From IMG/VR virus record IMGVR_UViG_3300017934_000002, positions 1 to 40,048 of that record: a stretch of DNA of 40,048 nucleotides. One strand, 5' to 3'. This document shows positions 1-40,048 of this stretch, in pieces. The stretch comes from a virus. The notes beneath the pieces were generated by a model that did not search any database, had not been told where the DNA came from, and saw only the letters and a list, made by a program, of their open reading frames with translations. The translations under genes and the position numbers were made by a program. Each line of letters begins with the position of its first letter. The stretch's first letter is position 1.

Positions 1-116
1 CAACGTAGACCATAATCCGCTCCTGGAATGCTCTCATCCCGCCGTTTTTCAACCGATGGACCCTGGAATCCACTCATCGAATCGGCTCGAACCTGCCCGG
101 CTTCGCATGCTTCAAA
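1..116. repeat. Left copy of a 116-bp exact terminal repeat
   Basis: The first 116 bases are identical to the last 116 (39933-40048). The simplest reading is that the contig is a closed circle of 39932 unique bases and the overlap is an assembly artefact. A true terminally redundant linear genome is the alternative. Genes and the boundary repeat at 18-68 run across the join without interruption, which favours a circle or circular permutation. Confidence 0.95.
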
Positions 117-1407: not shown

Positions 1408-1652
1408 GCCGCCGCCTTTTCGCGCAACGCGATTTCAACCACGCGGTTCAAGGGAAGCAGGTAGTACGATCCATCTGGTTTGATCACGTGCAGGTCCAAT
1501 CCATCGGACACCAGCCGGTTATCCGGCGCATACGCTTCCCGGTGTCCATCCCGGTACGTCACTTCAATGAAAGAGTAGATTCGCCGCGCCACAGCCCGAT
1601 TATACGGCTTTTTCGACGTGGGGAGGCTCGGAAACTTCGCTGATCGGTTCAC
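1404..1652 (-). CDS. Hypothetical small protein, 82 aa
   Basis: Contains IEVTYRDGHREAYAPDNR and a second beta-rich half (VIKPDGSYYLLPLNRVVEI), so probably a small beta domain. The ATG at 1652 overlaps the end of the fibre gene by 53 bases. A GTG about 60 bases in is an alternative start that removes a basic leader and leaves the conserved-looking part. It ends EKAAA, produced by the AAGGCGGCGGCATGA junction shared by many genes here. Confidence 0.6.
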   Translation of the reverse strand: MNRSAKFPSLPTSKKPYNRAVARRIYSFIEVTYRDGHREAYAPDNRLVSDGLDLHVIKPDGSYYLLPLNRVVEIALREKAAA

Positions 1653-3198
1653 AAGCAGTACTAGGACGCCGCTTCACGCCCCGGAGAATCACTTCCACCC
1701 CCGCCACGTACGCCTGAATCGTAATTGAACAAGCGACCGTGGCGACCACGGCCGCGGAGTCGGTGACTTGCACCGTGAAGGTAAAGACGCCGTAGGTCGT
1801 AGGCGTGCCCGAGGCGACCCCCGTGGCCGCGACCAAGGAAAGGCCCGGAGGCAGCGCCCCGGCTGAAATTGCAAACGTGTACGGAGGCGTTCCCCCGGAA
1901 GCCGTAAAAGTGTGGCTGTACGGCTGTAGCAGAAGCCCGCCAGGGGGATTGTTGCAGGAAGGTACCAAGGGAGGGACGAGTGGAGCGAAGAGAAAGAAAA
2001 GCGCATCGACGAACCCTGGCAGGAAAGCGGCCAAACGTCCCAGAACAGATCCGATGCGCCAATTCGGCAGCGAGAAAGCCTGCCCAGGAAATACGAAACC
2101 GGGTGGCGTCGGATCGACCAGGAAGTCATAAACCGTGCTAGTGGTCCATCCCAAAAGCGGGTTTGCGCTCTGCGCCACGCGAACCTGATTCGCCCCATAT
2201 GCCGGGTCCGTGGGTTGGACAAAAATCACGTACCAGAGCGCTCCATCGAAGGCAGCGGCGGGATATGGCGCAGTTCCATCGAACACGTTATAGGACGCTG
2301 CATCGACCCCCGGCGCCGCCAATTCGGTCCAGACCGGAGCGTTCAAAGGCGTACCGACATAAACGCTCACATAGCCTGGTATCGGCCCTGGCAGGCTGCG
2401 TATGACGGGCATGAGAATCGTGTTGTTCCCAACCGCTGGAGTAAGGCCGAAATACAGCAGATCGACCGGCAGCGCGCCTTGACCTGGAAAGTCGAAAAAC
2501 GAACCTAGACCGCCGCCCGACAAAAACTGCTGGTAGAAAAATCTGTCAGTCCACCCAGGCGTAAACGGATCGGTCAAAGCGAAGAAAATGTGCAGGGTAT
2601 CTGCGGCATCCATGACCGCCGGCAGCACATTGTTGAAAGAACCGATATTGGCGCCCGAACCGGCCCATCCAGGTAAGGCTTCCACATTCGTCTCAAGATC
2701 GACAATCGAAGACCATGCGCCTCCGCTGAACACATAGGCGCCCAGCCGGCTTGGAACGCCCGGCAGCGCGGTGGTATCTTCCACCAGGAGCACCAAGTCT
2801 CCGCTGGATCTTCGATATAAACCGAAAAGCGCATCTGGAGACGGAGCGCCCGCACCTCCAAAGGGAGCGCCCCAAGTCTCGCCAGCCAAATCGAAATTGC
2901 GCAGAATGACCGGAGCGCTTGCGCCCGGCGACGGCAGAAGCGCAATTGTGAGAGTGTTGGCTCCATCCCAAGCGAGACATTGAGCGTCGTAGAGCGCATT
3001 TGGCTCGTTAGCCGCATCGAGTTGGGTCCATGAGACCCCGCCATCGGTCGATTTCCAGACCTGTACGTCTTGCTGAACAGGCGGATAAACAATGACCGTG
3101 AATAGGTTTCCACCATGACGAAAGACCCCAGGATCACCCGCCCCAGGTTGCGGCATTCCAGTCGGACTCAAATTGCCGATCTGAGACAGGAGCATCAA
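1600..3198 (-). CDS. Beta-propeller/Ig-domain fibre-like protein A, 532 aa
   Basis: The first 390 residues are a repetitive beta-rich region with sialidase-like elements (KSTDGGVSWTQLD is an Asp-box type repeat), consistent with a propeller. Residues about 400-505 are a putative-Ig (He_PIG-like) domain with GGTPPYTFAISAGALPPGLSL. The end is GVEVILRGVKRRP, similar to the C-termini of the beta-rich proteins at 8585-11196. The Ig region is a near-copy of the one in the next gene upstream. Likely an adhesion or receptor-binding component of the particle. Starts 4 bases inside the upstream gene. Confidence 0.75.
   Translation of the reverse strand: MMLLSQIGNLSPTGMPQPGAGDPGVFRHGGNLFTVIVYPPVQQDVQVWKSTDGGVSWTQLDAANEPNALYDAQCLAWDGANTLTIALLPSPGASAPVILRNFDLAGETWGAPFGGAGAPSPDALFGLYRRSSGDLVLLVEDTTALPGVPSRLGAYVFSGGAWSSIVDLETNVEALPGWAGSGANIGSFNNVLPAVMDAADTLHIFFALTDPFTPGWTDRFFYQQFLSGGGLGSFFDFPGQGALPVDLLYFGLTPAVGNNTILMPVIRSLPGPIPGYVSVYVGTPLNAPVWTELAAPGVDAASYNVFDGTAPYPAAAFDGALWYVIFVQPTDPAYGANQVRVAQSANPLLGWTTSTVYDFLVDPTPPGFVFPGQAFSLPNWRIGSVLGRLAAFLPGFVDALFFLFAPLVPPLVPSCNNPPGGLLLQPYSHTFTASGGTPPYTFAISAGALPPGLSLVAATGVASGTPTTYGVFTFTVQVTDSAAVVATVACSITIQAYVAGVEVILRGVKRRPSTACEPISEVSEPPHVEKAV
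1670..1975. repeat. Imperfect direct repeat encoding the Ig module (copy in protein A)
   Basis: About 300 bp match 3266-3571 closely, with scattered synonymous and some non-synonymous changes. The repeat encodes the C-terminal Ig module and the VAGVEVILRGVKRR end. Boundaries are approximate. Confidence 0.85.
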
Positions 3199-4526
3199 AA
3201 TGTCCTAGGAACATGGGGAGGCTCTTCTATTTCGCCAACCGGTTCCAAACAGGTATCAGGACGCCGTTTCACGCCCCGTAGGATGACTTCTACTCCCGCC
3301 ACGTACGCCTGAATCGTGATTGAGCAAGCCACCGTGGCGACCACGGCCGCAGAGTCGGTGACTTGCAGGGTAAAGGAGAAGACGCCGTAGGCCGTAGGAG
3401 CGCCCGAGGCAATGCCAGTCAGAGGGTCCAACGAAAGGCCCGGAGGCAGCGCGCCCGCCGAAATAGCGAACGTGTACGGAGGCGTGCCCCCCGCAGCCGT
3501 AAAGGTGTGGGTGTAGGGCTGTAGCAGCAGGCCGGAAGCAGGGCTGTTGCAGGAAGGTATCAGGGGAGGGATGCCCAGCCCGAACGCAACCACCTGGACA
3601 GTATCGGGGATCTGGGAGGTTTGGAGCGTCCAGGCGATGCCATCGGGAGAGGTAAGGACATTTTGACCGCCCCCCGAACTGTATCCCACCGCCACAAACT
3701 CAGTTCCCGACCAAACCACCGAATGCAGGCCGGTATCGACGACCACGACCGGGGCGACTTGCCGAGTCCAGGTGATGCCATCGGGCGAAGTCATGACGGC
3801 CGGCTGTACTGGCGTCGGAGGCGAATTGGGAGATCCTACGGCGACATACAGCCCGGCGCCATACGCGATTCCAAGCCAGGAGACCCGCGGAACCGTAACC
3901 GGCGTAACCTGAGGGGTCCAAGTGACGCCATCCGGCGAAGTCATGGCTTGATGGTTTAGACCTGAACTCGCCAGCGCTACGAATTGACCGTTTGCAAAGC
4001 AGACCGCGCTCCAGTCCCGCACAGGGCCGGGAACGGCCTGTGGAGTCCAGGTGACCCCATCGGGAGAAGTCGCCACCATGGCTCCGCTTCCCACCGCCAC
4101 CAGAGCGGAAGGACCGGCAGGCCCGGCGCAGATGGATTGAAAAGAATTGCCGCCGGTGACAACCGTGGCCGTCTGGGTCCAAACCGTTCCATCGGGAGAA
4201 GTGACGACTACGGCGCCGCCGAATGTAGCATCGTCGATGGCTACAAACAGCCCAAGCGGAGCGCTGAAGCATACCGCGACAAATTCGCTGTTGGGCTGCG
4301 GGATGGCGTACCCCGTCCATGCCGCTCCATCGGGAGACGTCATCGCAATTTGCGTACTTCCGCCCGCATCGAAGCACAGCGCCACAAACGTGCTCAACGC
4401 GAAAGTAAGGGCGAAGCCACCGCTCGGATCGGTGGGAGAGGCGCGCAAGGTCCAGGTAACCCCGTCCGGGGAGCTTTCGACCTGGTTGGCCCCGCTCGAA
4501 AAGTTTCCGAGAGCGACAAAGGGCAT
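3195..4526 (-). CDS. BNR/Asp-box beta-propeller with Ig domain, fibre-like protein B, 443 aa
   Basis: Seven or more copies of SPDGxTWT occur at roughly 40-50 residue spacing through the first 310 residues. These are the Asp-box repeats of BNR/sialidase-like propellers. Residues about 315-415 form a He_PIG-type Ig domain, followed by VEVILRGVKRRP. Catalytic residues of a true sialidase are not evident, so a carbohydrate- or surface-binding role is more likely than hydrolysis. It is paired with protein A and shares its C-terminal third, indicating duplication or module exchange. Confidence 0.8.
   Translation of the reverse strand: MPFVALGNFSSGANQVESSPDGVTWTLRASPTDPSGGFALTFALSTFVALCFDAGGSTQIAMTSPDGAAWTGYAIPQPNSEFVAVCFSAPLGLFVAIDDATFGGAVVVTSPDGTVWTQTATVVTGGNSFQSICAGPAGPSALVAVGSGAMVATSPDGVTWTPQAVPGPVRDWSAVCFANGQFVALASSGLNHQAMTSPDGVTWTPQVTPVTVPRVSWLGIAYGAGLYVAVGSPNSPPTPVQPAVMTSPDGITWTRQVAPVVVVDTGLHSVVWSGTEFVAVGYSSGGGQNVLTSPDGIAWTLQTSQIPDTVQVVAFGLGIPPLIPSCNSPASGLLLQPYTHTFTAAGGTPPYTFAISAGALPPGLSLDPLTGIASGAPTAYGVFSFTLQVTDSAAVVATVACSITIQAYVAGVEVILRGVKRRPDTCLEPVGEIEEPPHVPRTF
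3266..3571. repeat. Imperfect direct repeat encoding the Ig module (copy in protein B)
   Basis: Partner of 1670-1975. The propeller parts of the two proteins differ while this module is conserved, as expected if it is the attachment end and the propellers are exchangeable binding heads. Confidence 0.85.
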
Positions 4527-4527
4527 A

Positions 4528-4896
4528 TCAAGCCAGATTCGTTACGTCCACCATCAGCGAAGACCCCGCAGGACAGAACAGTTCAGGCTCCAGCGCCAGT
4601 CCCGGACCGGACTTCGTAAACACGCCCGCAGGTACCCAGACCCCGCCATACGTCAGATGCGTTCCGAAGGCATCCCGGAAACGGACGCCCAAGACCCCGC
4701 TTGGGTCGATCACTTCGATGGATCGGATTCGATACTCCACGTCCTTTTCCAGTTGCAAAGGGACGTTCAGAAACGATTGGCCCGGAAGAAGGCCAGGCGT
4801 CAAAGACGGCGTGTTGCTCCGGTCGAACGAGTACACGAATTCCTCATCTGTGAAGCCGGGAGGCGTCGGATAGGCGAATTGAGGACGGTAAGGCAT
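4528..4896 (-). CDS. Beta-rich structural-type protein, 122 aa, short paralogue of the 162-aa protein
   Basis: Begins MPYRPQFAYPTPPGFTDEEF and is homologous to the protein at 9474-9962 (NYRPQFA...GFHDEEF). Both carry LQLE.D...R.R/.ARG. in the middle and PEL/IxCPAGSxxM near the end. The start at 4896 follows from that alignment and GAAGGGCAGACA upstream. The frame stays open upstream to 5064, so an N-terminal extension through the otherwise empty 4897-5085 stretch cannot be excluded. Likely a virion component of jelly-roll type (inference). Confidence 0.7.
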   Translation of the reverse strand: MPYRPQFAYPTPPGFTDEEFVYSFDRSNTPSLTPGLLPGQSFLNVPLQLEKDVEYRIRSIEVIDPSGVLGVRFRDAFGTHLTYGGVWVPAGVFTKSGPGLALEPELFCPAGSSLMVDVTNLA

Positions 4897-5085
4897 TGTC
4901 TGCCCTTCAGAATGCCACCAAATGGAGAGCTTGACAACCACGACGGCAGCGACGCCGTTTCCAGCGATGGGTCCAGGAAGCGCCCGAAATTCCAGGTACA
5001 AAACCATTACCCCACCCGTCCAAAGGGCCTTGTAGGGCTTCCCTTGCACCGGAAAAAGGCACAAACGGCGTATTCCAGGGTCCTT

Positions 5086-5412
5086 TCAGCTTTTCGGGGA
5101 AGGTTGGCAGGATTTCAGGAATGCGGGCACATCGCCGGTAATTCCAGGCTGTTTCATGCGTTCCGGCCGGTTTTTTCGGAAGTCCTCAAACGCCTGAAGC
5201 CGGTTAGCGATTCCCGCCATGTGGGACGGTGTACAGCCATCTTCCATCGCCAACCACTGATAGTAAGTAAGCATTCGAGCCGCCAAGCGGTCCCGCGCCC
5301 GGAACAGAATCAGCGGCTCATCCTCCGGTATCGGAATGCCGGTTACAGCATTCACAATGACCGGCTCCCCGTCTCGAATGTCGATTGCGTATTTCGGATC
5401 TATCGCCTTCAT
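5086..5412 (-). CDS. Hypothetical protein, 108 aa
   Basis: Starts MKAIDPKYAIDIRDGEPVIV. The first half carries beta-strand-like segments and PIPEDEPLILFRARDRLAARML; the second half is helical and basic. The ATG overlaps the HNH stop as TGATG. Soluble; its position after the HNH gene is the only functional clue. Function unknown. Confidence 0.65.
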   Translation of the reverse strand: MKAIDPKYAIDIRDGEPVIVNAVTGIPIPEDEPLILFRARDRLAARMLTYYQWLAMEDGCTPSHMAGIANRLQAFEDFRKNRPERMKQPGITGDVPAFLKSCQPSPKS

Positions 5413-5984
5413 CAGAACGGAACCTCCGATGCCCGCCCACCACGCCGACCGGAACGCGCTGCCGCCAATTTCGAGGCGAACTCGGAACGCTTGTGGCTGG
5501 GCGTGGCCCGGATCATGGCGACCGCATCGGAGACCTTCATAGTGGAAGTCAGGCCGGCATTCCGGTCAGAGCTTCCCACCCCGCCTTTTACTTTGCCCTG
5601 TGCGCGCGGTCTGATAGCTCCCACAGCCTGAACCCACTCCCCAAGGCTTGCAGCCCCGCCGCCCCTTGTCGGATTGAACTGGGCCGTTCTACGCCCCATT
5701 CTGGCCCGTTTCAGAGCATTGGAGTGATAACCGTTGCAGGACCGGCAAGTCCAGCAGAGGTTTTCCGGCTCGTTGTGGGATTCGTGGCCGTCCAGATGGC
5801 CCACCATGATCTGTTTCTTGGAGCCGCAGAATGCGCAGACTTTCGGGCCTTCGGGAGCGTTCCGGTTGGCCCGGTAGCGTTGCGCACGGTCTGTCAGATT
5901 GGGAACTTGCCGCGCGGAGTACTCCGTGACATGCAGGCCTTTGGAGCGGGTGACCGGACGGAATTTGACTACCACCAGGGGCAT
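5412..5984 (-). CDS. HNH-type endonuclease-like protein, 190 aa
   Basis: Zinc pairs CAFC (residues 50-53) and CRSC (80-83) flank a VGHLDGHESHNEPENL core. This is the layout of HNH-fold proteins common in phages (zinc ribbon, His-rich strand, Asn, second CxxC). The ATG at 5984 is preferred because GGAG lies 8 bases upstream; a longer frame runs to 6056 but that part overlaps a separate tiny ORF. The C-terminal half is basic with SDAVAMIRATPSHKRSEFASKL. It may be a homing-type or packaging-associated nicking enzyme; the activity is inferred from the family. Confidence 0.8.
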   Translation of the reverse strand: MPLVVVKFRPVTRSKGLHVTEYSARQVPNLTDRAQRYRANRNAPEGPKVCAFCGSKKQIMVGHLDGHESHNEPENLCWTCRSCNGYHSNALKRARMGRRTAQFNPTRGGGAASLGEWVQAVGAIRPRAQGKVKGGVGSSDRNAGLTSTMKVSDAVAMIRATPSHKRSEFASKLAAARSGRRGGRASEVPF

Positions 5985-5988
5985 ACGG

Positions 5989-6069
5989 CTACTCCAACGT
6001 ATCTTCCAGCAGCCACCACCAGAGATTGCCAGAGCAACCACCAAGAAAAAGCCCAAATAGCCACATCAT
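5989..6069 (-). CDS. Tiny hydrophobic peptide gene, 26 aa
   Basis: Encodes MMWLFGLFLGGCSGN then LWWWLLEDTLE, a very hydrophobic Trp-rich peptide. It lies between the stop of the 72-aa gene and the start of the HNH gene and fills the gap almost exactly. Its stop is 4 bases upstream of the HNH ATG, and that ATG's Shine-Dalgarno falls inside it. Reality depends on this packing alone. Confidence 0.35.
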   Translation of the reverse strand: MMWLFGLFLGGCSGNLWWWLLEDTLE

Positions 6070-6071
6070 CG

Positions 6072-6290
6072 TCAGGCCGCTTTCTTGCGCCGAGCCTTCG
6101 TCTTCACGGGCATATCTGTGCCCTGCCCCACCCACTTGCCGGTCTTCCGGTCCCATTGGTAGTCTCGCGGGCCGACGTACAGCAGCACGTTGTCATCATC
6201 GAGCGCCACACGGATCTTGACCGACCGGCCCAAGTCAAGAATCGGCAATACCCGGTCTTCAGTCTCGAAAACTTGCCTTGGCGTCTTCAT
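6072..6290 (-). CDS. Small basic-tailed protein, 72 aa, probably leaderless
   Basis: The N-terminal part is a small beta-like domain (ILDLGRSVKIRVALDDDNVLLYVGP), followed by a Trp/Lys region and a tail ending KTKARRKKAA. The ATG has no Shine-Dalgarno; TACAAT (6298-6303) stands 7 bases before it, matching the leaderless pattern elsewhere. It is the first protein gene after the tRNA. Function unknown. Confidence 0.65.
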   Translation of the reverse strand: MKTPRQVFETEDRVLPILDLGRSVKIRVALDDDNVLLYVGPRDYQWDRKTGKWVGQGTDMPVKTKARRKKAA

Positions 6291-6312
6291 GGGATTGATT
6301 GTACACCCTTGT

Positions 6313-6410
6313 TGGTGCGGGCGGCAGGACTCGAACCTACACCATTCTGCTTATCGAATGGCCTTCCGGCTTTTCATCCGGCGCCCTGATGCCAATTCGG
6401 GTACGCCCGC
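6313..6410 (-). tRNA. Class II (long variable arm) tRNA with encoded CCA and atypical anticodon arm
   Basis: The 98-nt minus-strand RNA folds with a 7-bp acceptor (GCGGGCG/CGCCCGC), discriminator A and encoded CCA. It has a 3-bp D stem with a Leu-like loop, a 6-bp variable arm (CCATTC/GAATGG) and a T arm GTAGG-TTCGAGT-CCTGC. The anticodon arm reads CCGG-ATGAAAAG-CCGG, giving an 8-nt loop (or 6 nt with an A-G closing pair), so the anticodon cannot be assigned safely. The only loop U would make it GAA, which does not suit a class II body. Expression is supported by the promoter at 6422-6451. Confidence 0.8.
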
Positions 6411-6421
6411 ACATGCCCCCA

Positions 6422-6451
6422 ATTCTACGCCCTCACTCCTGGAACGCGCAA
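6422..6451 (-). promoter_or_regulatory. Promoter of the tRNA: TTGCGC-N18-TAGAAT
   Basis: On the minus strand, TTGCGC (6446-6451) and TAGAAT (6422-6427) are separated by 18 bases. The initiation site would lie a few bases before the mature tRNA 5' end at 6410. The spacer holds the GTTCCAGGAGTG near-palindrome of the dispersed boundary repeat. A non-coding RNA using the same element shows that it is a promoter and not part of a coding sequence. Confidence 0.75.
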
Positions 6452-6518
6452 GAGCGTCTGAGTACCAGATGGGTGATTGGAAGACCAAAAAGCCTTGGAA
6501 GTGTTCCAAAGACCGTTC

Positions 6519-6743
6519 CTACTGCTTTAATGGCTCGGAGGATGCAAGGACCGCGCCATACTTCAGCCTCACGTCGGCCAAACGGGCTTCAGCGGCTAAC
6601 CGTTCCCTTCTCGCATCCGCCAAGCACGCTTGAGCCTCCAGCGCCCGCGCTTCAGCCTCCAGCGCCCCGCGACGGCAATAACGTAAAGCCCACAACGACA
6701 CCACGAAAGAGATCGCCGCAAAAATCAAGCTCACGCCGGCCAT
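6519..6743 (-). CDS. Membrane-anchored coiled-coil protein, 74 aa
   Basis: One N-terminal transmembrane helix (GVSLIFAAISFVVSLWAL) is followed by a Cys-Arg-Arg border and an Ala/Glu/Arg-rich coiled coil (about residues 26-62). The layout resembles spanin or holin-accessory proteins in general form, but no lipobox or recognised motif is present. Starts inside the end of the upstream gene. The 108 bases between its stop and the tRNA hold the promoter and a boundary repeat copy. Confidence 0.65.
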   Translation of the reverse strand: MAGVSLIFAAISFVVSLWALRYCRRGALEAEARALEAQACLADARRERLAAEARLADVRLKYGAVLASSEPLKQ

Positions 6744-7291
6744 GTAAACCCCTCGAAGATGGAAATGAGATAGTTCGGATCTCCCGTGGAGACGTTCGCC
6801 ACCGTCGTCGCCTTTGATCGCAGATCGGTTTCCGGCTTCAGGATGAAAGGCTTCTCAAACCGCATCGGAGGCCAAGCCACGCCGTTCTGACTCAACATGG
6901 GAGGTAAGGAGGTGCTGATCTGGTACAGACCCGCCAGGGGGTTACCCTGCAATGCCGTAACGCCGACTGGCGAATCCAGGTCCACAGTCCAAAGGATATC
7001 GCCGCGGCCTGGAACGAACCCCGCGCCAACATAGATCTGTAGCAACCCGCACAGCGCGAATTGCAGCCCCGCGGGAACGGAGTACTTGAGCACCTCGACC
7101 TGGTTGGCGCCTCCGAAAGCCGGCGCCGCGATTGAGCCGTAACGAAACACCGGCTCGGCCGATTCGGGCGGACAGAGCCAGGGATAGGGCCACTGATCGC
7201 GGTTGCGTTCGATCTGGTGAAGCGCGTGCATCTGCTTCACAGCTTCGGGTCCGGTAACGACGCGCCGATCACGCTCTCTCACTGGGGACAT
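6731..7291 (-). CDS. Beta-rich structural-type protein, 186 aa
   Basis: After a charged N-terminus (MSPVRERDRR), the sequence is dominated by short beta segments and prolines. Examples are VEVLKYSVPAGLQFALCGLLQIYV in the middle and a C-terminal KPETDLRSKATT...YLISIFEGFTWPA. GGAGGTGAGCGA gives a strong Shine-Dalgarno before the ATG. It belongs with the other beta-rich proteins encoded at 7279-11196 and is likely part of the particle. Unrecognised by family. Confidence 0.65.
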   Translation of the reverse strand: MSPVRERDRRVVTGPEAVKQMHALHQIERNRDQWPYPWLCPPESAEPVFRYGSIAAPAFGGANQVEVLKYSVPAGLQFALCGLLQIYVGAGFVPGRGDILWTVDLDSPVGVTALQGNPLAGLYQISTSLPPMLSQNGVAWPPMRFEKPFILKPETDLRSKATTVANVSTGDPNYLISIFEGFTWPA

Positions 7292-7791
7292 TCGCTCACC
7301 TCCAAGGCTCCGATAAGCACCTCGATACGCTGAGGACTCGCCGCCGTGCTCTGAATCGTGGCCCGGAACAGCCCGGAGCCAACCACTGGATAAGCCGAGT
7401 CCAGCAGGTTCCAGAAAGCCGACATCTGCGTTAGCCGGTTGTCGAGCACCACCGGATGATAGTTGGAGATCAGCACGGCGGGTATCGGCTCATCCCAGAA
7501 CTTGTGCCCGGTCGAAAGGTCTTCAAGCTGAAACACGAACTGCGGCGGAAGCCCGGTTACCGGGTCTGGAGGCACCAGGAAGCCGTACAGCAGATCACCA
7601 GGCGTCACCTGGAGGCCGAACTCCACGTAGCCGCCGGCCGCAACCACTTCGTTTTGCGGATCGGGAACTCGATAGATTTTCGGTTTGTAGCAGTCTTCGT
7701 AGGCCAACGGGTCGAGTTGCGAGAGCACCAGAGGGTCATAGTTCCCCCAGGTTGCCCGGATGAGAGGATCGAGCCACAAAGGGCCTAACAT
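7279..7791 (-). CDS. Beta-rich structural-type protein, 170 aa
   Basis: Begins MLGPLWLDPLIRATWGNYDP. The core has VVAAGGYVEFGLQVTPGDLLYGFLV and FVFQLEDLSTGHKFWDEPI, followed by a C-terminal strand pair (PQRIEVLIGALEVSE). A perfect GGAGGTCTC precedes ATG 7791, which I prefer over upstream Mets. The pattern of an L-x-G-x-x-x-x-x-x-x-x-P core and a final hydrophobic strand matches the neighbours; a jelly-roll virion protein is the likely class (inference). Confidence 0.7.
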   Translation of the reverse strand: MLGPLWLDPLIRATWGNYDPLVLSQLDPLAYEDCYKPKIYRVPDPQNEVVAAGGYVEFGLQVTPGDLLYGFLVPPDPVTGLPPQFVFQLEDLSTGHKFWDEPIPAVLISNYHPVVLDNRLTQMSAFWNLLDSAYPVVGSGLFRATIQSTAASPQRIEVLIGALEVSECPQ

Positions 7792-8180
7792 GAGACCTCC
7801 AACGATGCTTGAATAGCCGTGTCCAACGTCCGATTCGCCACACCGGAGCCGCCCTGAAAGATGCCCATTCCGATGCCCTGAGAATCGGCAAAGGCCATCA
7901 GCCACATGAAGCCTTTGACGACCGCCTCATCCGAGGCCGGCTCATCCTGGAGCGCCGCTGCGGTCAAGGCCAACACGCCGCGCAACGCACCGGAACCGCA
8001 CGTATGCTTGTACCGCTCTCCGAACACGCACGCTTCACAGCCGCGCACTTTGACGCCCTTGAAGTCGCCAAAGAACAGTTTTGACGTGTGGCGCCCATGC
8101 AGAAAGTCCGACTTTTCAGGGTCGAAATTCGCTTGCGGAACGCCCTTGCAAAGATCAACGGCGGTAGGTTTAACGGGCAT
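7785..8180 (-). CDS. Hypothetical cysteine-containing protein, 131 aa
   Basis: A central GCEACVFGERYKHTCGSG segment could hold a metal or disulphides. A helical C-terminal half (KGFMWLMAFADSQGIGMGIF) ends in SLEVSC. GGAGGGCC upstream of ATG 8180 is a good Shine-Dalgarno. It lies between structural-type genes and overlaps the next gene's start. Function unknown. Confidence 0.65.
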   Translation of the reverse strand: MPVKPTAVDLCKGVPQANFDPEKSDFLHGRHTSKLFFGDFKGVKVRGCEACVFGERYKHTCGSGALRGVLALTAAALQDEPASDEAVVKGFMWLMAFADSQGIGMGIFQGGSGVANRTLDTAIQASLEVSC

Positions 8181-8255
8181 CGGAAGGCCCTCCGTTGTTC
8201 CGTGGAGGCGCTACGCAGCCCCGAGGCTCTACAGCGTGCGAGGACTGAGGCCCCG

Positions 8256-8308
8256 CGCTCCTGGAACGCTCCAGACCCACTGCGCGAACTGTTGGACCCT
8301 GGAACGCC
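8256..8308 (-). repeat. Boundary repeat (R-B type) upstream of the 131-aa gene
   Basis: Carries both halves of the dispersed element: CGCTCCTGGAACG and, 38 bases on, ACCCTGGAACGCC. It occupies most of the gap 8181-8316. Unlike the tRNA copy, no TAGAAT box follows at the right distance, so promoter activity here is uncertain. Confidence 0.7.
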
Positions 8309-8316
8309 ATAGCCGT

Positions 8317-8583
8317 TTACTTTCGCACTCTTACGACCACCTGACGCCCTTTTCGTTCGATCTTCACCGCTTTGGCGGGTTGCCAGCCGGGAGGAGGATT
8401 GCGGCGATGGCCAAAAAAATATCCGTAGTCGTATCCCTCGCGCCATCTTCGCTGATTCGAGGGGATTAACATCTGCCGTTTACTTTCTTCAACAAGCCAG
8501 CGGCCAGCCAAAGGCACCGCGCCACTTCGACGGTCTTTAATTCCCGCTTTCTTGCCCTCTTGGTACGCGGTTATTTTCGCCAT
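8317..8583 (-). CDS. Small basic protein, 88 aa
   Basis: Contains repeated Lys/Arg patches (EGKKAGIKDRRSG, KIERKGRQVVVRVRK) and an aromatic centre (REGYDYGYFFGHRRNPPPGWQP). Starts 2 bases after the stop of the 302-aa gene. The basic character fits a nucleic-acid or capsid-interior contact, but this is inference only. Confidence 0.6.
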   Translation of the reverse strand: MAKITAYQEGKKAGIKDRRSGAVPLAGRWLVEESKRQMLIPSNQRRWREGYDYGYFFGHRRNPPPGWQPAKAVKIERKGRQVVVRVRK

Positions 8584-8584
8584 A

Positions 8585-9493
8585 TCAAAACACCTTCATT
8601 CCCCCGAACGTCAGAGGGTAGTCAACCGCAGCCGCCCCGGCGTAGGCCAAGTCGTTGCGCTCGATATCAAACCACATCTTGTGGGTTCGCGGGATGTAAA
8701 TCTCGGGCACTAGCAGCCCCGGTTGACTTGCTCCAGGACCGACCGGCGCGACAAACGACGTTCCCACCGGAAACACAGCCGGGAACGTGGAGCGCCCGAA
8801 AAGCACGTCCGCATGAACCGGAGCGTTCGAGTAAGGCTTCATAGCCTCGTCTTTGAGCGTAATGAAAACCTCGTATGTCCCAGTCTGCGGCCCGGCTTGG
8901 CCGAATCGGAACACGAAATCCGAATCGTTTTCAGGCGCAAAAGGCACGCTGATTCTGGCTGGATCGTTGACGCCCAAGGATGAAACCGTGAGCGGATACC
9001 AGAAGGGCAGGGGAGGCCGGCTCATTTTTGCGGGATAGGTGTAGTTGGCCCCGAATGCCCCTTGCGGACCCACCTTGACGCCCCGGAAAAACAGTTGCAG
9101 CCCGGTTACTATGGCCGCGCCATCGTTGCGAAGGTCAATCGTGATGATGCCCTTGCGCGGCCAGCGCACCGGAGGAAAGACCGGTTTCGGATTGCCCAGT
9201 TGGCCGAAGTAGGGACCCAGGAGCAGAGGCAACGGTACAAAATCCTGCTGCTTATAGTCTTGCGTATTGGGACCGGCCCACCTGGCCGAGATGAACTGCA
9301 AACCGTTTTGAGTGCCGAGCGCCGGTCCCGGAAGCGCAACGTACGGCACGCGCGCCGCCAAGCCCCGCAGTTCAAAGGGCCAATCCGCGTCCAACTGAAA
9401 CGAGATGCCCGCCGCCACTTGCCCCGCAATGAGGGTGGGAGCGTCGAAGACGTAATCCTGATGACGCTCTTGCTCACCGTTTGCAGTCGGCAT
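8585..9493 (-). CDS. Two-domain beta-rich virion-type protein, 302 aa
   Basis: The first domain carries ISFQLDADWPFELRGLAARV and ends in an LQLFFRGVKVG strand (residues about 25-155). These are the same LxxD-x-x-F-x-x-R-G and GVK signatures seen in the proteins at 9474-9962 and 10231-11196. The second half repeats the plan more loosely (ISVPFAPENDSDFVFRFG). Two stacked barrels in one chain would suit a capsid, vertex or spike component (inference). GGAG lies 9 bases before ATG 9493, inside the upstream gene. Confidence 0.75.
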   Translation of the reverse strand: MPTANGEQERHQDYVFDAPTLIAGQVAAGISFQLDADWPFELRGLAARVPYVALPGPALGTQNGLQFISARWAGPNTQDYKQQDFVPLPLLLGPYFGQLGNPKPVFPPVRWPRKGIITIDLRNDGAAIVTGLQLFFRGVKVGPQGAFGANYTYPAKMSRPPLPFWYPLTVSSLGVNDPARISVPFAPENDSDFVFRFGQAGPQTGTYEVFITLKDEAMKPYSNAPVHADVLFGRSTFPAVFPVGTSFVAPVGPGASQPGLLVPEIYIPRTHKMWFDIERNDLAYAGAAAVDYPLTFGGMKVF

Positions 9494-9962
9494 AGCGCTT
9501 GACTCCGAAAATGGCGATTACCGCATCGATAGCGACCGGCGCGGGCGGGGAAGTCGCATTTTGAAAGTAAGCCATGAACACGCTCCCCGCGGGGCATTCG
9601 ATTTCCGGCTCCAAAGGCACCGTCATCAACTCGAATCCGCCCGCAGGCGTCAAATCCAGCCCGCCCGGCAGGTAGGATTGATATGGAATCAGAAAGCCGG
9701 AACCGGAGACCTCGGGAGACAGAAGCCTCCCGCCCGGCTCTCGCAGTTGCACGTTGACGGTAGCGATGGAACCCAACCGGACGCCCCGCGCGATGAAGAC
9801 CGCATCGGTTTCAAGCTGCAACGGAATGTCCCGCAGCGTGGCGCCGCCCGCCAGCGTCAGGCCCAAGGCCGGATTGCTCAACTCATCGAAGTAGTGAATG
9901 AACTCCTCATCGTGGAAGCCCGCAGGACAAGGCGATACGGCGAATTGAGGCCGGTAGTTCAC
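9474..9962 (-). CDS. Beta-rich virion-type protein, 162 aa (GTG start)
   Basis: Reads V/MNYRPQFAVSPCPAGFHDEEF, then IPLQLETDAVFIARGV, then PLEPEIECPAGSVFMAYF and a terminal AVIAIFGVKRYADCKR. The GTG at 9962 overlaps the previous TGA as GTGA, and homology to the 122-aa protein at 4528-4896 confirms the start. It is one of at least four paralogues with the LQLE.D..F..RG signature. Likely a particle component. Confidence 0.75.
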   Translation of the reverse strand: MNYRPQFAVSPCPAGFHDEEFIHYFDELSNPALGLTLAGGATLRDIPLQLETDAVFIARGVRLGSIATVNVQLREPGGRLLSPEVSGSGFLIPYQSYLPGGLDLTPAGGFELMTVPLEPEIECPAGSVFMAYFQNATSPPAPVAIDAVIAIFGVKRYADCKR

Positions 9963-10231
9963 CGCTGCCCTCCGAAGGTCCAAAAAGCCGCGCCAAGGCC
10001 CAATGCGGCCAGCGCAAGCAAGCCGTTCGATATGCCGGGAATCAGGCTCATTGCGACCGGCGATGTTGCCGGCGGAATCGTCCATGCCGGTGATGTGGAA
10101 GAGGCAGGAGATTGGACAACCGTTATCGGAGGCGCTACAGCGGCCACAGCAGGGGCCGCAGCCTTCCGCGCCGCCGCCGCCGCAAGAGCGGCTGGAATAT
10201 CTTCGATCACTTGACCGAGGCCGACGTACAT
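9959..10231 (-). CDS. Tail-anchored Ala/Pro-rich membrane protein, 90 aa
   Basis: Begins MYVGLGQVIEDIP, then has a long Ala/Pro/Ser linker, and a C-terminal transmembrane helix (GLLALAALGLGAAFWTF) ending GGQR. The Met-Tyr/GLG start and basic end match other short membrane proteins in the same unit. Likely inserts with a short positively charged cytoplasmic or interior tail. Function unknown. Confidence 0.7.
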   Translation of the reverse strand: MYVGLGQVIEDIPAALAAAAARKAAAPAVAAVAPPITVVQSPASSTSPAWTIPPATSPVAMSLIPGISNGLLALAALGLGAAFWTFGGQR

Positions 10232-11196
10232 TACGCCTTCCTCCGTTTCACGCCTGAGAGGACGCCCGCGATGTAGATGTTGCCCGTACCGGAGTAGTCG
10301 ATCAAGACCAGATCCACAAACACGGTATCGCCCGCGCGCACTTTCCAGTCTTTCGCTTGAAGCACCCCGTTCAGGATGCCGTAGCGCACGTAATCGTCCG
10401 TGAGAGCATAACCAGTGGAGTCCCGTACTTTGACCAGTACATCCCCCACCGCGGGCGCTCGGCCCTGATCCGCGCCGGTTGCGAAAGAGACTTTGCGGAC
10501 CATGAAATCCGCGGCTTGCTCGATCTGGAATTGGAGGGTTGCGCTTTTCGCCGTGGCCGCCCCCACGTCGATCTGCGCGGTATCCGAGACGTAATCGAAC
10601 CCGCCCGGCTCATCGATGAAGCCTTGAGGGGTTTGCGGTCCTTCCCCGAAGGCATGGCAGGGCGCCATGATGTTCTGGTTCGCGCCGGCGACCCACCGTG
10701 GAAGCGACGATGCCAGATCCGCCGCGCGGACGCGCGTGTCCGCTCCCCTGACGTGGTAATAGTACGATCCTTCGAGCAGCAAAGGGACCGCTTGCGCCGT
10801 TCCGGCCGCCGAGTCGCCAAACGTTACTTGGATCTTCGTGCCCGGCGGACAGGCCCGCGCGAAGGTGAGCGGATAGCGCCAGGAGCCGAACCCGCCGATA
10901 GCGCGGATATCGGCTAAGTTGTGAAACAGAAAGCGTCCGTCCGGGAACTGAATCTGCATCACCAGACCGACCGGAACGGTGATGTAGGAAGAGATCGACC
11001 GCAGCATCCAAGTCGTATCGCCCGTGATGGTGACTTGAACGGTCGAAAGCAAGGAAGACGGAGCCGCAGCGAACACGGCCCAACACTTGAACGCCTTCGC
11101 AATCGCCACCACGCGCAAACCTGGATCTTTCGGAACCGGCCTTCCGCAACGGGAAAGAACTATGTCGGCTTGGCGCAGCAGATCAGGCGTCATCAT
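10231..11196 (-). CDS. Large beta-rich virion-type protein, 321 aa
   Basis: The N-terminal part includes a Cys/Pro-rich helix and a beta region (STVQVTITGDTTWMLRSISSYI). The C-terminal half has LQFQIEQAADFMVRKVSFAT and ends in the strand IYIAGVLSGVKRRKA, matching the paralogue signature (LxFQIE.A.DF..R and GVKR). The region 10726-10743 is a copy of the dispersed GCGGAC palindrome. Two-domain layout, probably two barrels. Starts within the coiled-coil gene's ATGATG overlap. Confidence 0.72.
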   Translation of the reverse strand: MMTPDLLRQADIVLSRCGRPVPKDPGLRVVAIAKAFKCWAVFAAAPSSLLSTVQVTITGDTTWMLRSISSYITVPVGLVMQIQFPDGRFLFHNLADIRAIGGFGSWRYPLTFARACPPGTKIQVTFGDSAAGTAQAVPLLLEGSYYYHVRGADTRVRAADLASSLPRWVAGANQNIMAPCHAFGEGPQTPQGFIDEPGGFDYVSDTAQIDVGAATAKSATLQFQIEQAADFMVRKVSFATGADQGRAPAVGDVLVKVRDSTGYALTDDYVRYGILNGVLQAKDWKVRAGDTVFVDLVLIDYSGTGNIYIAGVLSGVKRRKA

Positions 11197-11738: not shown

Positions 11739-12464
11739 TTAGGAGACCGGACGGCCCAGCAGACCGAACATGAAGGCGCGGATGACCGTACCAACGCCGC
11801 CCGTGGGCTTCGCCGCCCCCGCCGTCAGGGAGGCTTGCGCGGGCTGATTGGTGATCGCGCTCACCGGCCCGGAAGTGGCCGGGAAGAACAGGTTGAAAGA
11901 CCACTGGACATTCGGCGCCAAGTATTTGCCGAAGTGGCCGAACCGCTTGCGGGCGCCCGGATCGGGCATCCCGTTTTGCCAGCCGCTTTCGTTGGTCTGG
12001 GTGGTGAACCCCGAGTAGCCGATGCCCGGAGGATAGGCCACCACCTTGCCGTCCCACTGGACTTTCGACAGGATGGCGAACTCGAAGTAGCTGTAAAGCT
12101 CGATGATGTCGAGATCCGCCTTGATGGTGGACGGCTCCACGAACAGCGCAACCGAGTCGATCACGATGTCATAGGGAGGCGTCAGGCCCGTCGAAGCCTT
12201 GCTCGGGATGTTGGTTTCGACTTTGGAAAGAGTCGGGAACGGCGGCCCGACGATGGTAGAGAGCGGGTAGGGGTCCGCATCCCCGATAGCCGCGTTGAAC
12301 AGGGTGTAGCGCTCCAGCAGCGCGGTACCTGCGGCCAGTTTCAGCGTGTAGTAGAAATTCCCGGTGACGCGATCCGAAATGCCGCCCAGAAGGGCATTCA
12401 TATCGACCGTGCCGCCAGGGGTGACGGGAACTTGCGTTCCGGCCACGACAGAAGGCATTGGCAT
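11739..12464 (-). CDS. Candidate major capsid-type protein, 241 aa
   Basis: A beta-rich chain with no signal peptide or long helix: GNFYYTLKLAAGTALLERYTLF, DIVIDSVALFV, IIELYSYFEFAIL and a C-terminal VQWSFNLFFPA. GAGGAG sits 9 bases before the ATG and a structured 100-base leader precedes it, as expected of a highly translated gene. It sits centrally among virion-type genes. I suggest it as the main coat protein from size, composition and expression signals; no family is recognised, so this is inference. Confidence 0.6.
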   Translation of the reverse strand: MPMPSVVAGTQVPVTPGGTVDMNALLGGISDRVTGNFYYTLKLAAGTALLERYTLFNAAIGDADPYPLSTIVGPPFPTLSKVETNIPSKASTGLTPPYDIVIDSVALFVEPSTIKADLDIIELYSYFEFAILSKVQWDGKVVAYPPGIGYSGFTTQTNESGWQNGMPDPGARKRFGHFGKYLAPNVQWSFNLFFPATSGPVSAITNQPAQASLTAGAAKPTGGVGTVIRAFMFGLLGRPVS

Positions 12465-12566: not shown

Positions 12567-13457
12567 CTAATTCCAGTCGGGCGCCGCCAGCAGCGCTCCC
12601 ACGCCCTTGTTATGCGTTACCACCGGCATCGTCGCCGGCTGTCCGAACGAACTGCCCGGAGGCAGAATCATGGAAGGCGGATAGCCGCCCCCGACTCTCT
12701 GCGGCCAAACGAAATTCCAGTTGGTCTGGTAATCGCCCAAGCCGGCCCCGGAAAGCGCCTGACCGTAGGGGGTTTGGTCCGTCAGGATGCGGACGATCAG
12801 TTGCGCGATGCCGCCCGCCACGACCATCGTGGCGATGCTCTTGTCGCGGAAAAACAGGTGCGCTCCGTAGCCGAGCGCGATGGTGGCGCCGATGTTGCCG
12901 GCGTACCCCATCGCCCCCGTGTTCTTGCTCTGCAAAATGAGTTGCGTGAGCGCCTTGCTGCCGACCGCGCCGCCGACTACCGATGCGCCCGCAATCGCGT
13001 ACTGCATGACCTTCCCGCCGGCCGGATTGTGACGGCGCCGACGCGCGTACATTCCCCGCATGGCCGGATTCCTTCTGTGCCGCCGCCCCGGCTCGTTGCG
13101 CTTGCGGCTGCCAGCGCGATGATGCCGGACGGCATTCTTTCGTTTCGCCATACTGCCTCTCTTTCTCGCTGGATTGCCAGCCGTCCCGAGCACGTAGACT
13201 ACTTCGCCAAGGTTCCGCCGTTTGGCGGTACGCGGACGATGGGAGGCCGCCCGGGCTTGCCTCCGAACCTGTTTCCGCCGAGGAGCGGCGTTATGCCGCT
13301 TGGCGGGCTTGCGCCGCTTGGCGGACAGCGCATGACGCGCCGCCGCTCTCTGGCGCTTCGTGCCGAAATGCAATTTCTGTTTGAGCGTCATGCGTCCTCC
13401 ACCGGCCCTCCGATGGGCCGGGTTTGCGATCAAAGTCGTTCTTTCCGAGTAGGCCAT
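12567..13457 (-). CDS. Arg/Lys-rich membrane protein with several in-frame starts, 296 aa
   Basis: The first 150 residues are extremely basic (runs such as KRQRAAARHALSAKRRKPAKR and RKRNEPGRRHRRNP), suited to neutralising DNA. Residues about 155-240 hold glycine-rich membrane-helix segments, and the end is proline-rich. Three in-frame ATGs each have their own Shine-Dalgarno: 13457 (AAAGGGGG), 13391 (GGAGGACGC, protein MTLKQKLHFG...) and one at MAKRKN (GAGAGG). A DNA-condensing, membrane-linked virion protein is likely (inference). I recall similar basic proteins in metagenomic phages, but have no search result. Confidence 0.7.
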   Translation of the reverse strand: MAYSERTTLIANPAHRRAGGGRMTLKQKLHFGTKRQRAAARHALSAKRRKPAKRHNAAPRRKQVRRQARAASHRPRTAKRRNLGEVVYVLGTAGNPARKRGSMAKRKNAVRHHRAGSRKRNEPGRRHRRNPAMRGMYARRRRHNPAGGKVMQYAIAGASVVGGAVGSKALTQLILQSKNTGAMGYAGNIGATIALGYGAHLFFRDKSIATMVVAGGIAQLIVRILTDQTPYGQALSGAGLGDYQTNWNFVWPQRVGGGYPPSMILPPGSSFGQPATMPVVTHNKGVGALLAAPDWN

Positions 13458-13487: not shown

Positions 13488-13940
13488 CTACTGCGCCGCC
13501 GAATGCGGGCGCCAGGCGTACAGCTTGGCGACCACCGAAGTGCCCGCAGTCGTACCCCCGGAGCCGGCGAGATTCTGTTTGGTAAGCGTGATCTGAGTTC
13601 CCGCCGCCGTCACGCCCCAGGTGCTTACCAGCGACGTGGTTGTACCGCCCCCGTTCGATAGGGCCGACTGAATCCAGATCGTATCGGGCGGACTGGACCC
13701 CATCCCGTGCGCGATGGCTACGGTCGTGTCCGTGTCGAGACAGGTGATGTTCCAGGACTTGTAGTTGTTGTTGTCCACCACCTTGGTAGCTACGATCGCC
13801 ATGGGCATGAGAGCGAAGCCCCCGCCGATCAGCACGACGGCCAAGGACCCGAACGAAAGCCCGTGATGGAGGCCCAGTACACCCGCGCCCACCATGCAGG
13901 CCAGAATCGAAAGCAGGCCCAATACTCGTTTCAACGTCAT
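13488..13940 (-). CDS. Membrane-anchored beta-rich protein, 150 aa
   Basis: Two hydrophobic segments near the N-terminus (LLSILACMVGAGVLGL and LAVVLIGGGFALMPMAIVA) are followed by a Thr/Gly-rich beta domain (residues about 60-150). GAGGAGGT lies 7 bases before the ATG, which overlaps the glycosyltransferase stop. Function unknown; probably exported or membrane-displayed. Confidence 0.65.
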   Translation of the reverse strand: MTLKRVLGLLSILACMVGAGVLGLHHGLSFGSLAVVLIGGGFALMPMAIVATKVVDNNNYKSWNITCLDTDTTVAIAHGMGSSPPDTIWIQSALSNGGGTTTSLVSTWGVTAAGTQITLTKQNLAGSGGTTAGTSVVAKLYAWRPHSAAQ

Positions 13941-15388
13941 ACTGCAACCTCCTCAAGTTGCTTTTTCACAGGTGCGAAATCGGAAATCGGCCGCAGATCG
14001 AAGCGCGGAGGCTCCACCGGGCCGAACTTCAGGTGCTCCACATGGGCGCCGGGATGCAGAAAGATCAGATGCCCCGCCTGTTTGGCGCGGTAGCACCAGG
14101 ACACGTCATCGGTCAGGAATCCCCGCCCGTCGTCCACCGCGACCGGCCAGAAGCCGCGCGGCCCGCCAAGCTCGTTCAGAACCGACCCGCGCATCAGCAG
14201 CATTCCGAAACCGATGAAGGCGAGGTCCTGAATCAAGGTATCGCCCTTCAGGGCTTCCAAAACCTCCGCTTCGGTCAACTGACAATCGTTTGGACCGAAA
14301 CTGCGGCCGGCCGCGATGTAGCTGCGCATCGGGTCAGGTCCTTTGTAGCGGTACCAGGCCCCGATCACGTCGATTGGCGGTAAGGTTTTGTCCGTGTTGC
14401 GCTCCGAGGCTTCAAGAGCGTTCATCAAGGCCTGAAACGCGGCCACTGTCGGCGGATTATCCGAGTCGATCCAGAGCACATAATCGGGCGAACCGAACTT
14501 CAAGGCTTCAAGAGCCGTCGCCATGCGGACGTGGTAGATGTTGTTCGACTGCCCATATATGCGCGAGAAGGCGAAGCGGCCCCAGAGGTAATAGTGCAGT
14601 TGATCCCATTCGGCCAGCCATTCGCTCGAGAAATTCGACCCCGGCGTAATGACCACGAGGCTTTTCAGGGTATCTTGCCCGCCCGTGAAGCCGTTGCGCC
14701 GCCGTTTGGCGAGAACCCGCGCCTTGACCGCCCAGGCGTCCGGACGGTTGCTCTGCCGGTACACCGCGTCCGCTGTTTGCGGTATCCCATCGCCCGCCTT
14801 TTTAACCGGGTGACGATGCTCGAATTTGACCGCTGCCCGCGCGTCGATCACCACCCCATCTTTGTTCGCGTATTCGGTGAAATCGTCATCCGATCCGACC
14901 GAGTTGTACGCGGGGTAGAACAGTTCCCCATTGGGACAGCCGCCGCGGCCCGGCCGTTCGTAGTAAGCCCGCGTCAGAATCGGATGGGTCATGATCCAGG
15001 GCCACGGGTCTTGCGCGTTGACGTGGACTGCATACTCCCCGCCAATGTCCGGTATGACGTTCAGGAGCGCCGTGTCCCAATGTTTGCAGGGGAAGAAATC
15101 GTCGGCCACGCAAATGAGCACTTGACCCGTGGAGGCCCGCGCCGCCGTGTTCCAGGCGTCCACAACGCAATGACGGCCCGTATTCAGCGTCAAGCGGACG
15201 TTGCGCGGAGGTCCGGGAACACTGAGGCGAGAATCCGTTTCAAAGAATGGCCCGCCCTTGTCCACGCACAGGATGTATTCCACCGTGCTCGGATCGTCGG
15301 CAGACGAGAGCCAGGCTTCAAACGCTTCCCGCCACTTCTCGGGACGCGCGGAGACGTGCAGCAAGGAAAAAAGAGGCCCTGTGCTCAC
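13937..15388 (-). CDS. Tandem two-domain glycosyltransferase (GT-A/GT2-like), 483 aa
   Basis: Residues about 5-230 form a first nucleotide-sugar transferase-like domain with VADDFFP (metal-binding ADD at 95-97). Residues about 243-475 form a second with VLWIDSDNPP (DSD 308-310), WYRYKGPDP and a DDVSWCYRAKQAG acceptor-site stretch. Each domain resembles family-2 GT-A enzymes. A fused pair suggests sequential addition of two sugars, perhaps to virion proteins or to host surface glycan. GTG 15388 overlaps the previous stop. No signal peptide, so it acts in the cytoplasm or at the membrane face. Confidence 0.8.
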   Translation of the reverse strand: MSTGPLFSLLHVSARPEKWREAFEAWLSSADDPSTVEYILCVDKGGPFFETDSRLSVPGPPRNVRLTLNTGRHCVVDAWNTAARASTGQVLICVADDFFPCKHWDTALLNVIPDIGGEYAVHVNAQDPWPWIMTHPILTRAYYERPGRGGCPNGELFYPAYNSVGSDDDFTEYANKDGVVIDARAAVKFEHRHPVKKAGDGIPQTADAVYRQSNRPDAWAVKARVLAKRRRNGFTGGQDTLKSLVVITPGSNFSSEWLAEWDQLHYYLWGRFAFSRIYGQSNNIYHVRMATALEALKFGSPDYVLWIDSDNPPTVAAFQALMNALEASERNTDKTLPPIDVIGAWYRYKGPDPMRSYIAAGRSFGPNDCQLTEAEVLEALKGDTLIQDLAFIGFGMLLMRGSVLNELGGPRGFWPVAVDDGRGFLTDDVSWCYRAKQAGHLIFLHPGAHVEHLKFGPVEPPRFDLRPISDFAPVKKQLEEVAV

Positions 15389-34022: not shown

Positions 34023-34093
34023 TCCCGCTTCAGAGAAGCCCCACGGTGAACGGAATACCGCCATAGCCCGTTAAAAGCGCTACAATCGTGCGC

Positions 34094-39651: not shown

Positions 39652-39945
39652 TCAAGCGGGTTCTGAGGGTGCGAGGAGCGCGGGACCGCGATCACGGAAA
39701 AGTGATGGAAACAACTTGCGGCCCAGTTCCATTTGACTAATTTCGAGCGCTCCAGCCTCCACCGCTAATTTGCGTTTTGCCAGGCAGATATCGAAATGCT
39801 CCTGTCGCGTGCCCGCTTTCTGAATCCATCTGGACTGAACACCGATCCGCGCCGCCATCGCCAAAAGCTCATCGTGCGTATCCGCGATCATGTGACACAT
39901 CACCATACGCCCAAACGCAGCCTTCATGCCGTCAACGTAGACCAT
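39652..39945 (-). CDS. DUF4031 family protein, 97 aa
   Basis: MVYVDGMKAAFGRMVMCHMI then ADTHDELLAMAARIGV, DICLAKRKLAVEAGALEIS and MELGRKLF are the signature features of DUF4031, a small family common in phages and of unknown function. CAGGAG 6 bases before ATG 39945 fixes the start. Ends ALLAPSEPA, a diverged form of the shared cassette tail. Confidence 0.88.
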   Translation of the reverse strand: MVYVDGMKAAFGRMVMCHMIADTHDELLAMAARIGVQSRWIQKAGTRQEHFDICLAKRKLAVEAGALEISQMELGRKLFPSLFRDRGPALLAPSEPA

Positions 39946-40048
39946 AATCCGCTCCTGGAATGCTCTCATCCCGCCGTTTTTCAACCGATGGACCCTGGAA
40001 TCCACTCATCGAATCGGCTCGAACCTGCCCGGCTTCGCATGCTTCAAA
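39933..40048. repeat. Right copy of the 116-bp exact terminal repeat
   Basis: Identical to 1-116. It contains the start codon and Shine-Dalgarno of the DUF4031 gene, a boundary repeat (39950-40000) and the 3' end of the 88-residue gene found at 74-340. Confidence 0.95.
39950..40000 (-). repeat. R-B' boundary repeat, copy before DUF4031 (also at 18-68)
   Basis: Carries CGCTCCTGGAATG and, 40 bases on, ACCCTGGAATCC. It lies in the terminal redundancy, so it appears twice in the window but once on the circle. Confidence 0.92.

Follow-up and report, generated by a model that had tools for sequence, protein, structure and literature searches.

The DNA examined here, a virus record of 40,048 bases (IMG/VR record IMGVR_UViG_3300017934_000002; this whole stretch is called the window), carries four genes (F, N, P and M) that encode copies of one protein domain, and two genes following F (E and D) that encode fibres. 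On balance, we regard F as probably an unfinished jelly-roll-like barrel, to which the fibres attach by donating the missing last strand. F would be an incomplete barrel with an open groove where its last strand belongs; the C-terminal strand of a fibre would slot into this groove as the last strand and the fibre would be held by completion of the F fold, so that one socket could accommodate several fibres differing in their bodies. A split of this kind would have occurred separately in the second domain of M (M2) and in a copy of the first domain of P (P1) of related viruses, and in other relatives the outer domain would lie within the barrel chain. The more general form of this model, to which we give slightly better than even credence, is a split jelly-roll mode of fibre attachment, in which any fibre ending in such a strand would complete the vertex barrel, different copies became split on at least three occasions, in-chain versions coexist and fibre exchange needs only a plug of ~13 residues. 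This proposed socket and plug, which we hold to be moderately likely, is a new element beyond the shared GVKR ends pointed out in an earlier sequence-only reading of the same DNA.

A domain family with copies lacking the last strand

All four genes of the family are located on the minus strand. P (10231-11196) comprises two family domains, P1 (10708..11196, boundary approximate) and P2 (10231..10707), N (9474..9962) is one complete domain of 162 amino acids (aa), M (8585-9493) again consists of two domains, M1 (9062..9493) and M2 (8585..9061), and F (4528..4896) is one domain of 122 aa, without the last strand (it ends ..LMVDVTNLA), the proposed socket. The likely starts of F (4896, MPYRPQF) and N (9962, GTG) lie inside longer open reading frames (ORFs), each behind a Shine-Dalgarno-like run. 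The signature by which the four proteins had originally been connected was found at LQLEKDVEYRIRS (F), LQLETDAVFIARG (N), FQIEQAADFMVRK (P) and FQLDADWPFELRG (M), as were the G-V-K-R ends FRGVKVG in M, FGVKRYA in N, SGVKRRKA in P and LRGVKRRP in both fibres; in a joint alignment of chosen family members, the signature and the GVKR strand fall in the same columns. The paralogy, the beta-richness and the mixture of single- and double-domain proteins claimed by that reading were supported; P and M contain two copies each, so that the family has six (P1, P2, N, F, M1 and M2).

The copies were compared with hhalign, with P and M halved and one profile built per copy (7 to 14 sequences each; N of two relatives with an insertion, G11 and G12, and two cut P1 copies were excluded). 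This analysis gave a probability of 92.9-99.9% in 12 of the 15 family pairs, the best of which were N-F (E 5e-31), P2-N (8e-15) and N-M1 (6e-15), and weaker values for P1-F (76.5), P1-M2 (56.3) and F-M2 (27.5). All 51 control pairs with six other conserved proteins (R, J, I, S, T377 and X492) stayed at or below 6.2%, and the reversed-profile controls of the 15 family pairs at or below 1.6%, except for F against reversed M2 (16.2%), because of which the F-M2 pair alone is not significant. A search with an N+F profile also picked up M of two distant relatives, in its first half (E 5e-8 and 1e-7). R, I and J were considered as further members and rejected on sequence (hhalign probability of at most 1.6% against any family copy), although a remote relation of fold may exist. 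At the level of sequence, these comparisons establish that the F, N, P and M copies share a common ancestry.

Relatives of the window (W) were retrieved by protein: G1-G7 (G001-G007, from IMG/VR), G8 (G008, contig PLGA01000082.1 of a Bryobacterales metagenome-assembled genome, MAG) and the distant relatives G9 (L034), G10 (L035), G11 (L042), G12 (L044), G13 (L048), G14 (L045) and G15 (L043). F was found in 7 of the 14 viral genomes examined (W, G1-G5 and G8); in the six genomes other than the window it is 54-60% identical to the window copy and free of internal stops. It stops exactly ahead of the last ('GVKR') strand of the family (..SLMVDVTNLA), at the same point in 7/7 genomes, while N continues ~25 residues beyond this point, into a last strand ending ..VIAIFGVKRYA (IDAVIAIFGVKRY, 9492..9530, minus strand), which is the strand that F is without. 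No F was seen in G9, G10 and G13; there, M is cut short at the matching place in M2 (in G9, after ..PEIYIPKNQLLYFDLVALP), ahead of the strand formed in the window by M residues 290-301. In G12 and G14 it is a P1 copy that is cut, in G12 as a separate copy ending ..ESGANIVIEVSQP. Altogether, a copy without the last strand is present in 11 of 15 assessable genomes, and the three kinds of putative receiver (F, M2 and the P1 copy) all end, by sequence, just before the last strand of their fold. The split in M2 and in the P1 copy seems to have arisen separately from that in F. Insertions of ~100 residues were found directly before the last strand of N in G11 and G12, and in G11, J forms a single chain of 588 aa across the circular junction, with ~400 propeller-like residues inserted between its halves; outer domains are thus hung on these proteins in-chain, and their attachment between chains is what we propose.

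The two genes after F, both on the minus strand, encode fibres with a He_PIG immunoglobulin-like (Ig) domain (Pfam) and an end consisting of AGVEVILRGVKRR and 21 further residues. E (3195..4526; 443 aa) is composed of propeller-like repeats, the He_PIG domain, the family-like last strand and the 21-aa extension, and its start codon stands immediately behind the stop of F (TGATATG). D (1600..3198; 532 aa) has a body unlike that of E and the same end; the 300-nt 3' end common to the two genes is 82% identical. The proposed donor strands (3261..3299 in E and 1666..1704 in D, minus strand) each scored 19.4 with a last-strand matrix derived from complete copies of P2, N, M1 and M2, with carriers excluded. 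This matrix was run over 2277 ORF ends of 16 records (median score -5.8), of which 60 reached at least 9.0; 38 of these belong to family proteins, 17 to fibres or small carriers and 5 to other proteins. The 17 carriers, from 10 genomes, scored 9.0-25.4.

In G9 and G10, the genes after the cut M encode fibres ending in VTLTMKGEKVYA and similar strands; the two fibres of G9 have 11/11 end residues identical and bodies without a match, and the G1 fibres agree at 21 of 36 tail positions, again with bodies without similarity. The fibre of G8 is read as two ORFs owing to ambiguous bases. G12 carries an internal strand, LTVDIQFWGVLRF, behind a He_PIG domain in the second gene after the cut P1 copy; it was detected by a separate P1-strand scan and resembles the complete P1 strands VNIQFWGVRRY and TDLEFWGVLRY. 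The end of a 376-aa protein of G12 was also tried as a donor strand and rejected, as it looks like the close of the protein's own domain, as in proteins of G1, G5 and G8. In G13, of which the full contig was scanned, the carriers are two fibres and an 84-aa ORF (40810-41064; L048:15257-15511), which bears the last-strand motif at its end without a fibre body and could either cap the socket or be a remnant.

Carriers and cut copies go together: a carrier is present in 11/11 genomes with a cut copy (W, G1-G5 and G8 with F; G9, G10 and G13 with M2; G12 with P1) and in 0/4 genomes having complete copies only (G6, G7, G11 and a provirus in the bacterial genome G554). This count omits G14, whose contig ends inside the next gene, and G15 (4 kb).

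Predicted fold of M and a candidate capsid protein

Of the four family proteins, only M was folded. Its AlphaFold2 model (11 sequences; predicted local distance difference score, pLDDT, 66.7; predicted template modelling score, pTM, 0.69) shows two copies of one seven-stranded unit with the same strand order, with strands modelled at residues 7-17, 26-33, 40-48, 65-73, 103-111, 116-123 and 133-143 in M1 and 162-173, 180-185, 192-200, 209-214, 273-279 and 290-301 in M2, and a short helix after the fourth strand of each. Foldseek returned 11 chains at E <= 0.001, six from enzymes and five from capsid proteins (STIV, FLiP, grouper iridovirus twice, and infectious bursal disease virus); at least two of the six enzyme chains are labelled DUF2961 or GH172. 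With VIA-align, the viral matches were the capsid protein of Sulfolobus polyhedral virus 1 (SPV1; 6oj0, the best match of M2, Z 7.9 over 127 residues at 4.1 A), SH1 (7.5), HHIV-2 (7.4), STIV (7.4) and HCIV-1 (6.8), and non-viral proteins stood level with them (peptidylglycine monooxygenase, 7.8; HA70, 7.6). The earlier interpretation was partly supported; the jelly-roll fold that it suggested has support short of certainty, the viral jelly-rolls being nearest to the model at Z 7.4-7.9 and non-viral beta-sandwiches equally close. Judged by the model, the fold of the family is likely a jelly-roll.

The main protein of the shell is more likely R (11739..12464, minus strand), a candidate major capsid protein predicted to be a single jelly-roll and encoded beyond the stretch covered by the earlier reading, than the family proteins; F, N, P and M would, we infer, build or crown the shell. 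The model of R (15 sequences, pLDDT 63.1, pTM 0.60) also matched SPV1 best in VIA-align (Z 7.3, 128 residues, 3.2 A), and most of the 50 rows listed were viral capsid proteins; Foldseek found nothing significant at 0.001 with the R model. In a PDB sequence search with profiles, M had no match and R one chance-level match, which was not SPV1.

Proposed strand donation, its alternatives and known systems

Several observations weigh against the donation of a last strand by the fibres. Complete last strands are assigned to the right copy type in 61 of 62 cases, and yet the nine distinct tails of F-cut genomes, for which type N was expected, scored best as P2 (six), M1 (two) and N (one), and the six tails of M2-cut genomes as M1 (four), N (one) and M2 (one). 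The idea of a donated strand that is invariably of the cut copy's type was dropped, as it holds only for the P1 case in G12 (19.4 against at most 6.8 for other types). By their scores, the 17 ends and the one internal strand are clearly of the family, but, outside G12, not demonstrably of the expected copy. Moreover, the strand has only 13 residues, so that a docking motif in common, with no barrel being completed, would fit as well, the tails of the F group run on for 21-22 residues past it, and other ORFs stand between socket and carrier in G1, G5, G8 and G13. The genomes are related, so that no more than a few independent events underlie the 15 counts, and G1 and G3 are fragments of genomes. 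Finally, the fold matches of M and R are all below Z 8, short of the safe level.

The family could be some other beta-sandwich, such as a host-attachment module, unrelated to viral jelly-rolls. The monooxygenase and HA70 match M as well as the viral chains do, but we consider this reading distinctly unlikely, as five of the 11 Foldseek matches are capsid proteins and the family genes share a block with R, predicted to be a single jelly-roll. The enzyme matches point the same way, since at least two of the six belong to DUF2961 or GH172 and we take DUF2961 to be the cellular homologs of double jelly-roll capsid proteins. Cellular homologs of such proteins are reported in PMC8812541. Alternatively, the GVKR end could serve as a general docking peptide, bound either to the edge of a barrel that is already complete (strand addition) or to some other protein of the shell, with F being short and closed in some other way. 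The tails of the F and M2 groups, which are not of the cut copy's type, favour this, as does HCIV-1, where the spike contributes an extra strand that pairs with strand G of a penton barrel complete in itself (PMC6414509); still, we hold it to be rather improbable, since it leaves unexplained both the same cut point in three places and the carriers in 11/11 against 0/4 genomes.

Two further explanations were weighed. Frameshifting at the nearly touching stop and start (TGATATG in the window) could join F and a fibre in a single chain, in which case the strand would come in cis and the split would be apparent rather than real; the in-chain insertions that N of G11 and G12 has at this same place would agree with this. 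The presence of two or three carriers in each of W, G1, G4, G9 and G13, and of ORFs intervening between cut copy and carrier in four genomes, makes it very improbable. That F, which is not as long as N and is missing from G6 and G7, is a functionless, decaying duplicate of N is hardly credible, given that it is kept in six other genomes at 54-60% identity, with a constant end point and no internal stops.

The proposed completion of F by a fibre strand recalls donor-strand complementation in chaperone-usher pili, where an incomplete beta-sandwich is completed by a strand of the next subunit; those systems are bacterial and use Ig-like pilins with an N-terminal donor, and no relation to them is claimed. 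To our knowledge, no split barrel is known in SPV1, which, unlike the virus described here, has an archaeal host, and whose capsid protein, although the best structural match of M2 and R, gave no sequence match and a Z below 8. Parallels are offered by HCIV-1, HHIV-2 and SH1, whose shell and vertex proteins are single and stacked jelly-rolls (VP4 is two stacked jelly-rolls and HHIV-2 VP16 four in a row) and whose penton serves as an adaptor for different spikes, with a spike strand pairing with the penton barrel (PMC6414509). Their penton barrel, however, is complete and the strand is added to it, whereas here the barrel is without its last strand and such a strand is found on the fibre; their hosts are halophilic archaea, and no sequence similarity was seen. 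In phiCjT23, FLiP, PM2 and PRD1, spikes separate from the penton are thought to be easily swapped, and the PRD1 spike joins a mixed penton; exchange there uses whole penton-binding domains rather than one strand (PMC9719478). Adenovirus capsid proteins share strands too, by strand swapping of the penton base and strand addition by protein IX, but these are N-terminal strands between pentons or edge additions, not a last strand supplied by a fibre (PMC7616808, PMC3386624). Literature searches found strand addition and swapping and no fibre-supplied last strand, most subscription papers being outside their coverage.

The virus group, its hosts and other genes

The window has a 116-base direct repeat at its ends (1..116 and 39933-40048), so that its genome looks circular or permuted. 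Exact end repeats of 30-127 bases occur in the window and eight relatives (G2, G4, G5, G6, G9, G11, G12 and G13), and G7 has an overlapping end. R, S, J, I, M, N and P are found in an almost constant order across the relatives. R was searched for across the phylum of the MAG (396 genomes; one match, the MAG itself) and across its order (257 genomes; two matches, the MAG and G554). In G554, a provirus of 20.6 kb (contig C1, 4838481-4859092; L069:6481 to L070:7092) is located in the bacterial chromosome, flanked by 45-base att repeats, one of which is the 3' end of a tRNA-Gly gene; it encodes a Phage_integrase-family integrase and a primase-polymerase. Its family domain is a single, complete copy and none is cut; the group thus spans one copy to six.

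The virus is probably tailless, and probably membrane-containing, and infects soil bacteria. No terminase, portal or HK97 capsid match (PHROGs) was obtained among the 20 window proteins scanned; Pfam and PHROGs searches with F, N, P, M, R, I and J gave no match at E <= 1 apart from a weak one of R to an unknown family, and both fibres had weak PHROGs 'tail protein' matches over the Ig domain (E 0.004 and 0.016). In tblastn searches against 50,697 phage records, P had one match (E 0.6) and M and R none, and literature searches returned nothing recognised as matching this group. A hydrophobic segment is present in 8 of the 24 window ORFs examined, seven of which are not fibres. A packaging ATPase with a P-loop is usual in vertical single jelly-roll (Singelaviria-like) viruses. 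No conserved Walker A motif was found by motif scan among the records listed (10/16), and in the genomes of the group (33-45 kb, circular-looking) neither a conserved packaging ATPase with a P-loop nor a conserved terminase or portal was recognised. The 85.9-kb contig of G10 (L053-L057) holds a virus of the group in its first part and, by eye, tailed-phage-like genes in the remainder, including a 1330-aa tape-measure-like ORF and a terminase-like ORF near 83-85 kb; it is either a chimaeric assembly or a composite element.

The structural block of the window also encodes, on the minus strand, the conserved proteins J (7279..7791) and I (6731..7291, without a detectable family link), a basic protein with one hydrophobic segment that is conserved across the whole group (S, 12567..13457) and a glycosyltransferase family 2-like protein (13937-15388), found in most relatives, which possibly modifies the virion or the host surface. 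Two genes kept even in the G554 provirus are likely core genes: one for a 377-aa protein (19917-21050, minus strand) with a weak transglutaminase-like match below the cut-off, and one for a 492-aa protein (21173-22651, plus strand) of no family, divergent from the former. A 533-aa protein with a signal-peptide-like start (34088-35689, plus strand), common to most relatives, is possibly a second surface protein, encoded on the other strand. ARAGORN called a doubtful tRNA with a four-base anticodon (gaaa) at 6313-6410 (minus strand).

Most tailless viruses pose the question of how one capsid can hold fibres whose bodies are unrelated. A one-strand plug, if true, would be a very small interface and would explain the common end on unrelated fibre bodies. 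In addition, the domain series of this group, from one copy in the G554 provirus to five or six, with gene borders moving, offers a rare view of the way in which stacked jelly-roll proteins may come about.

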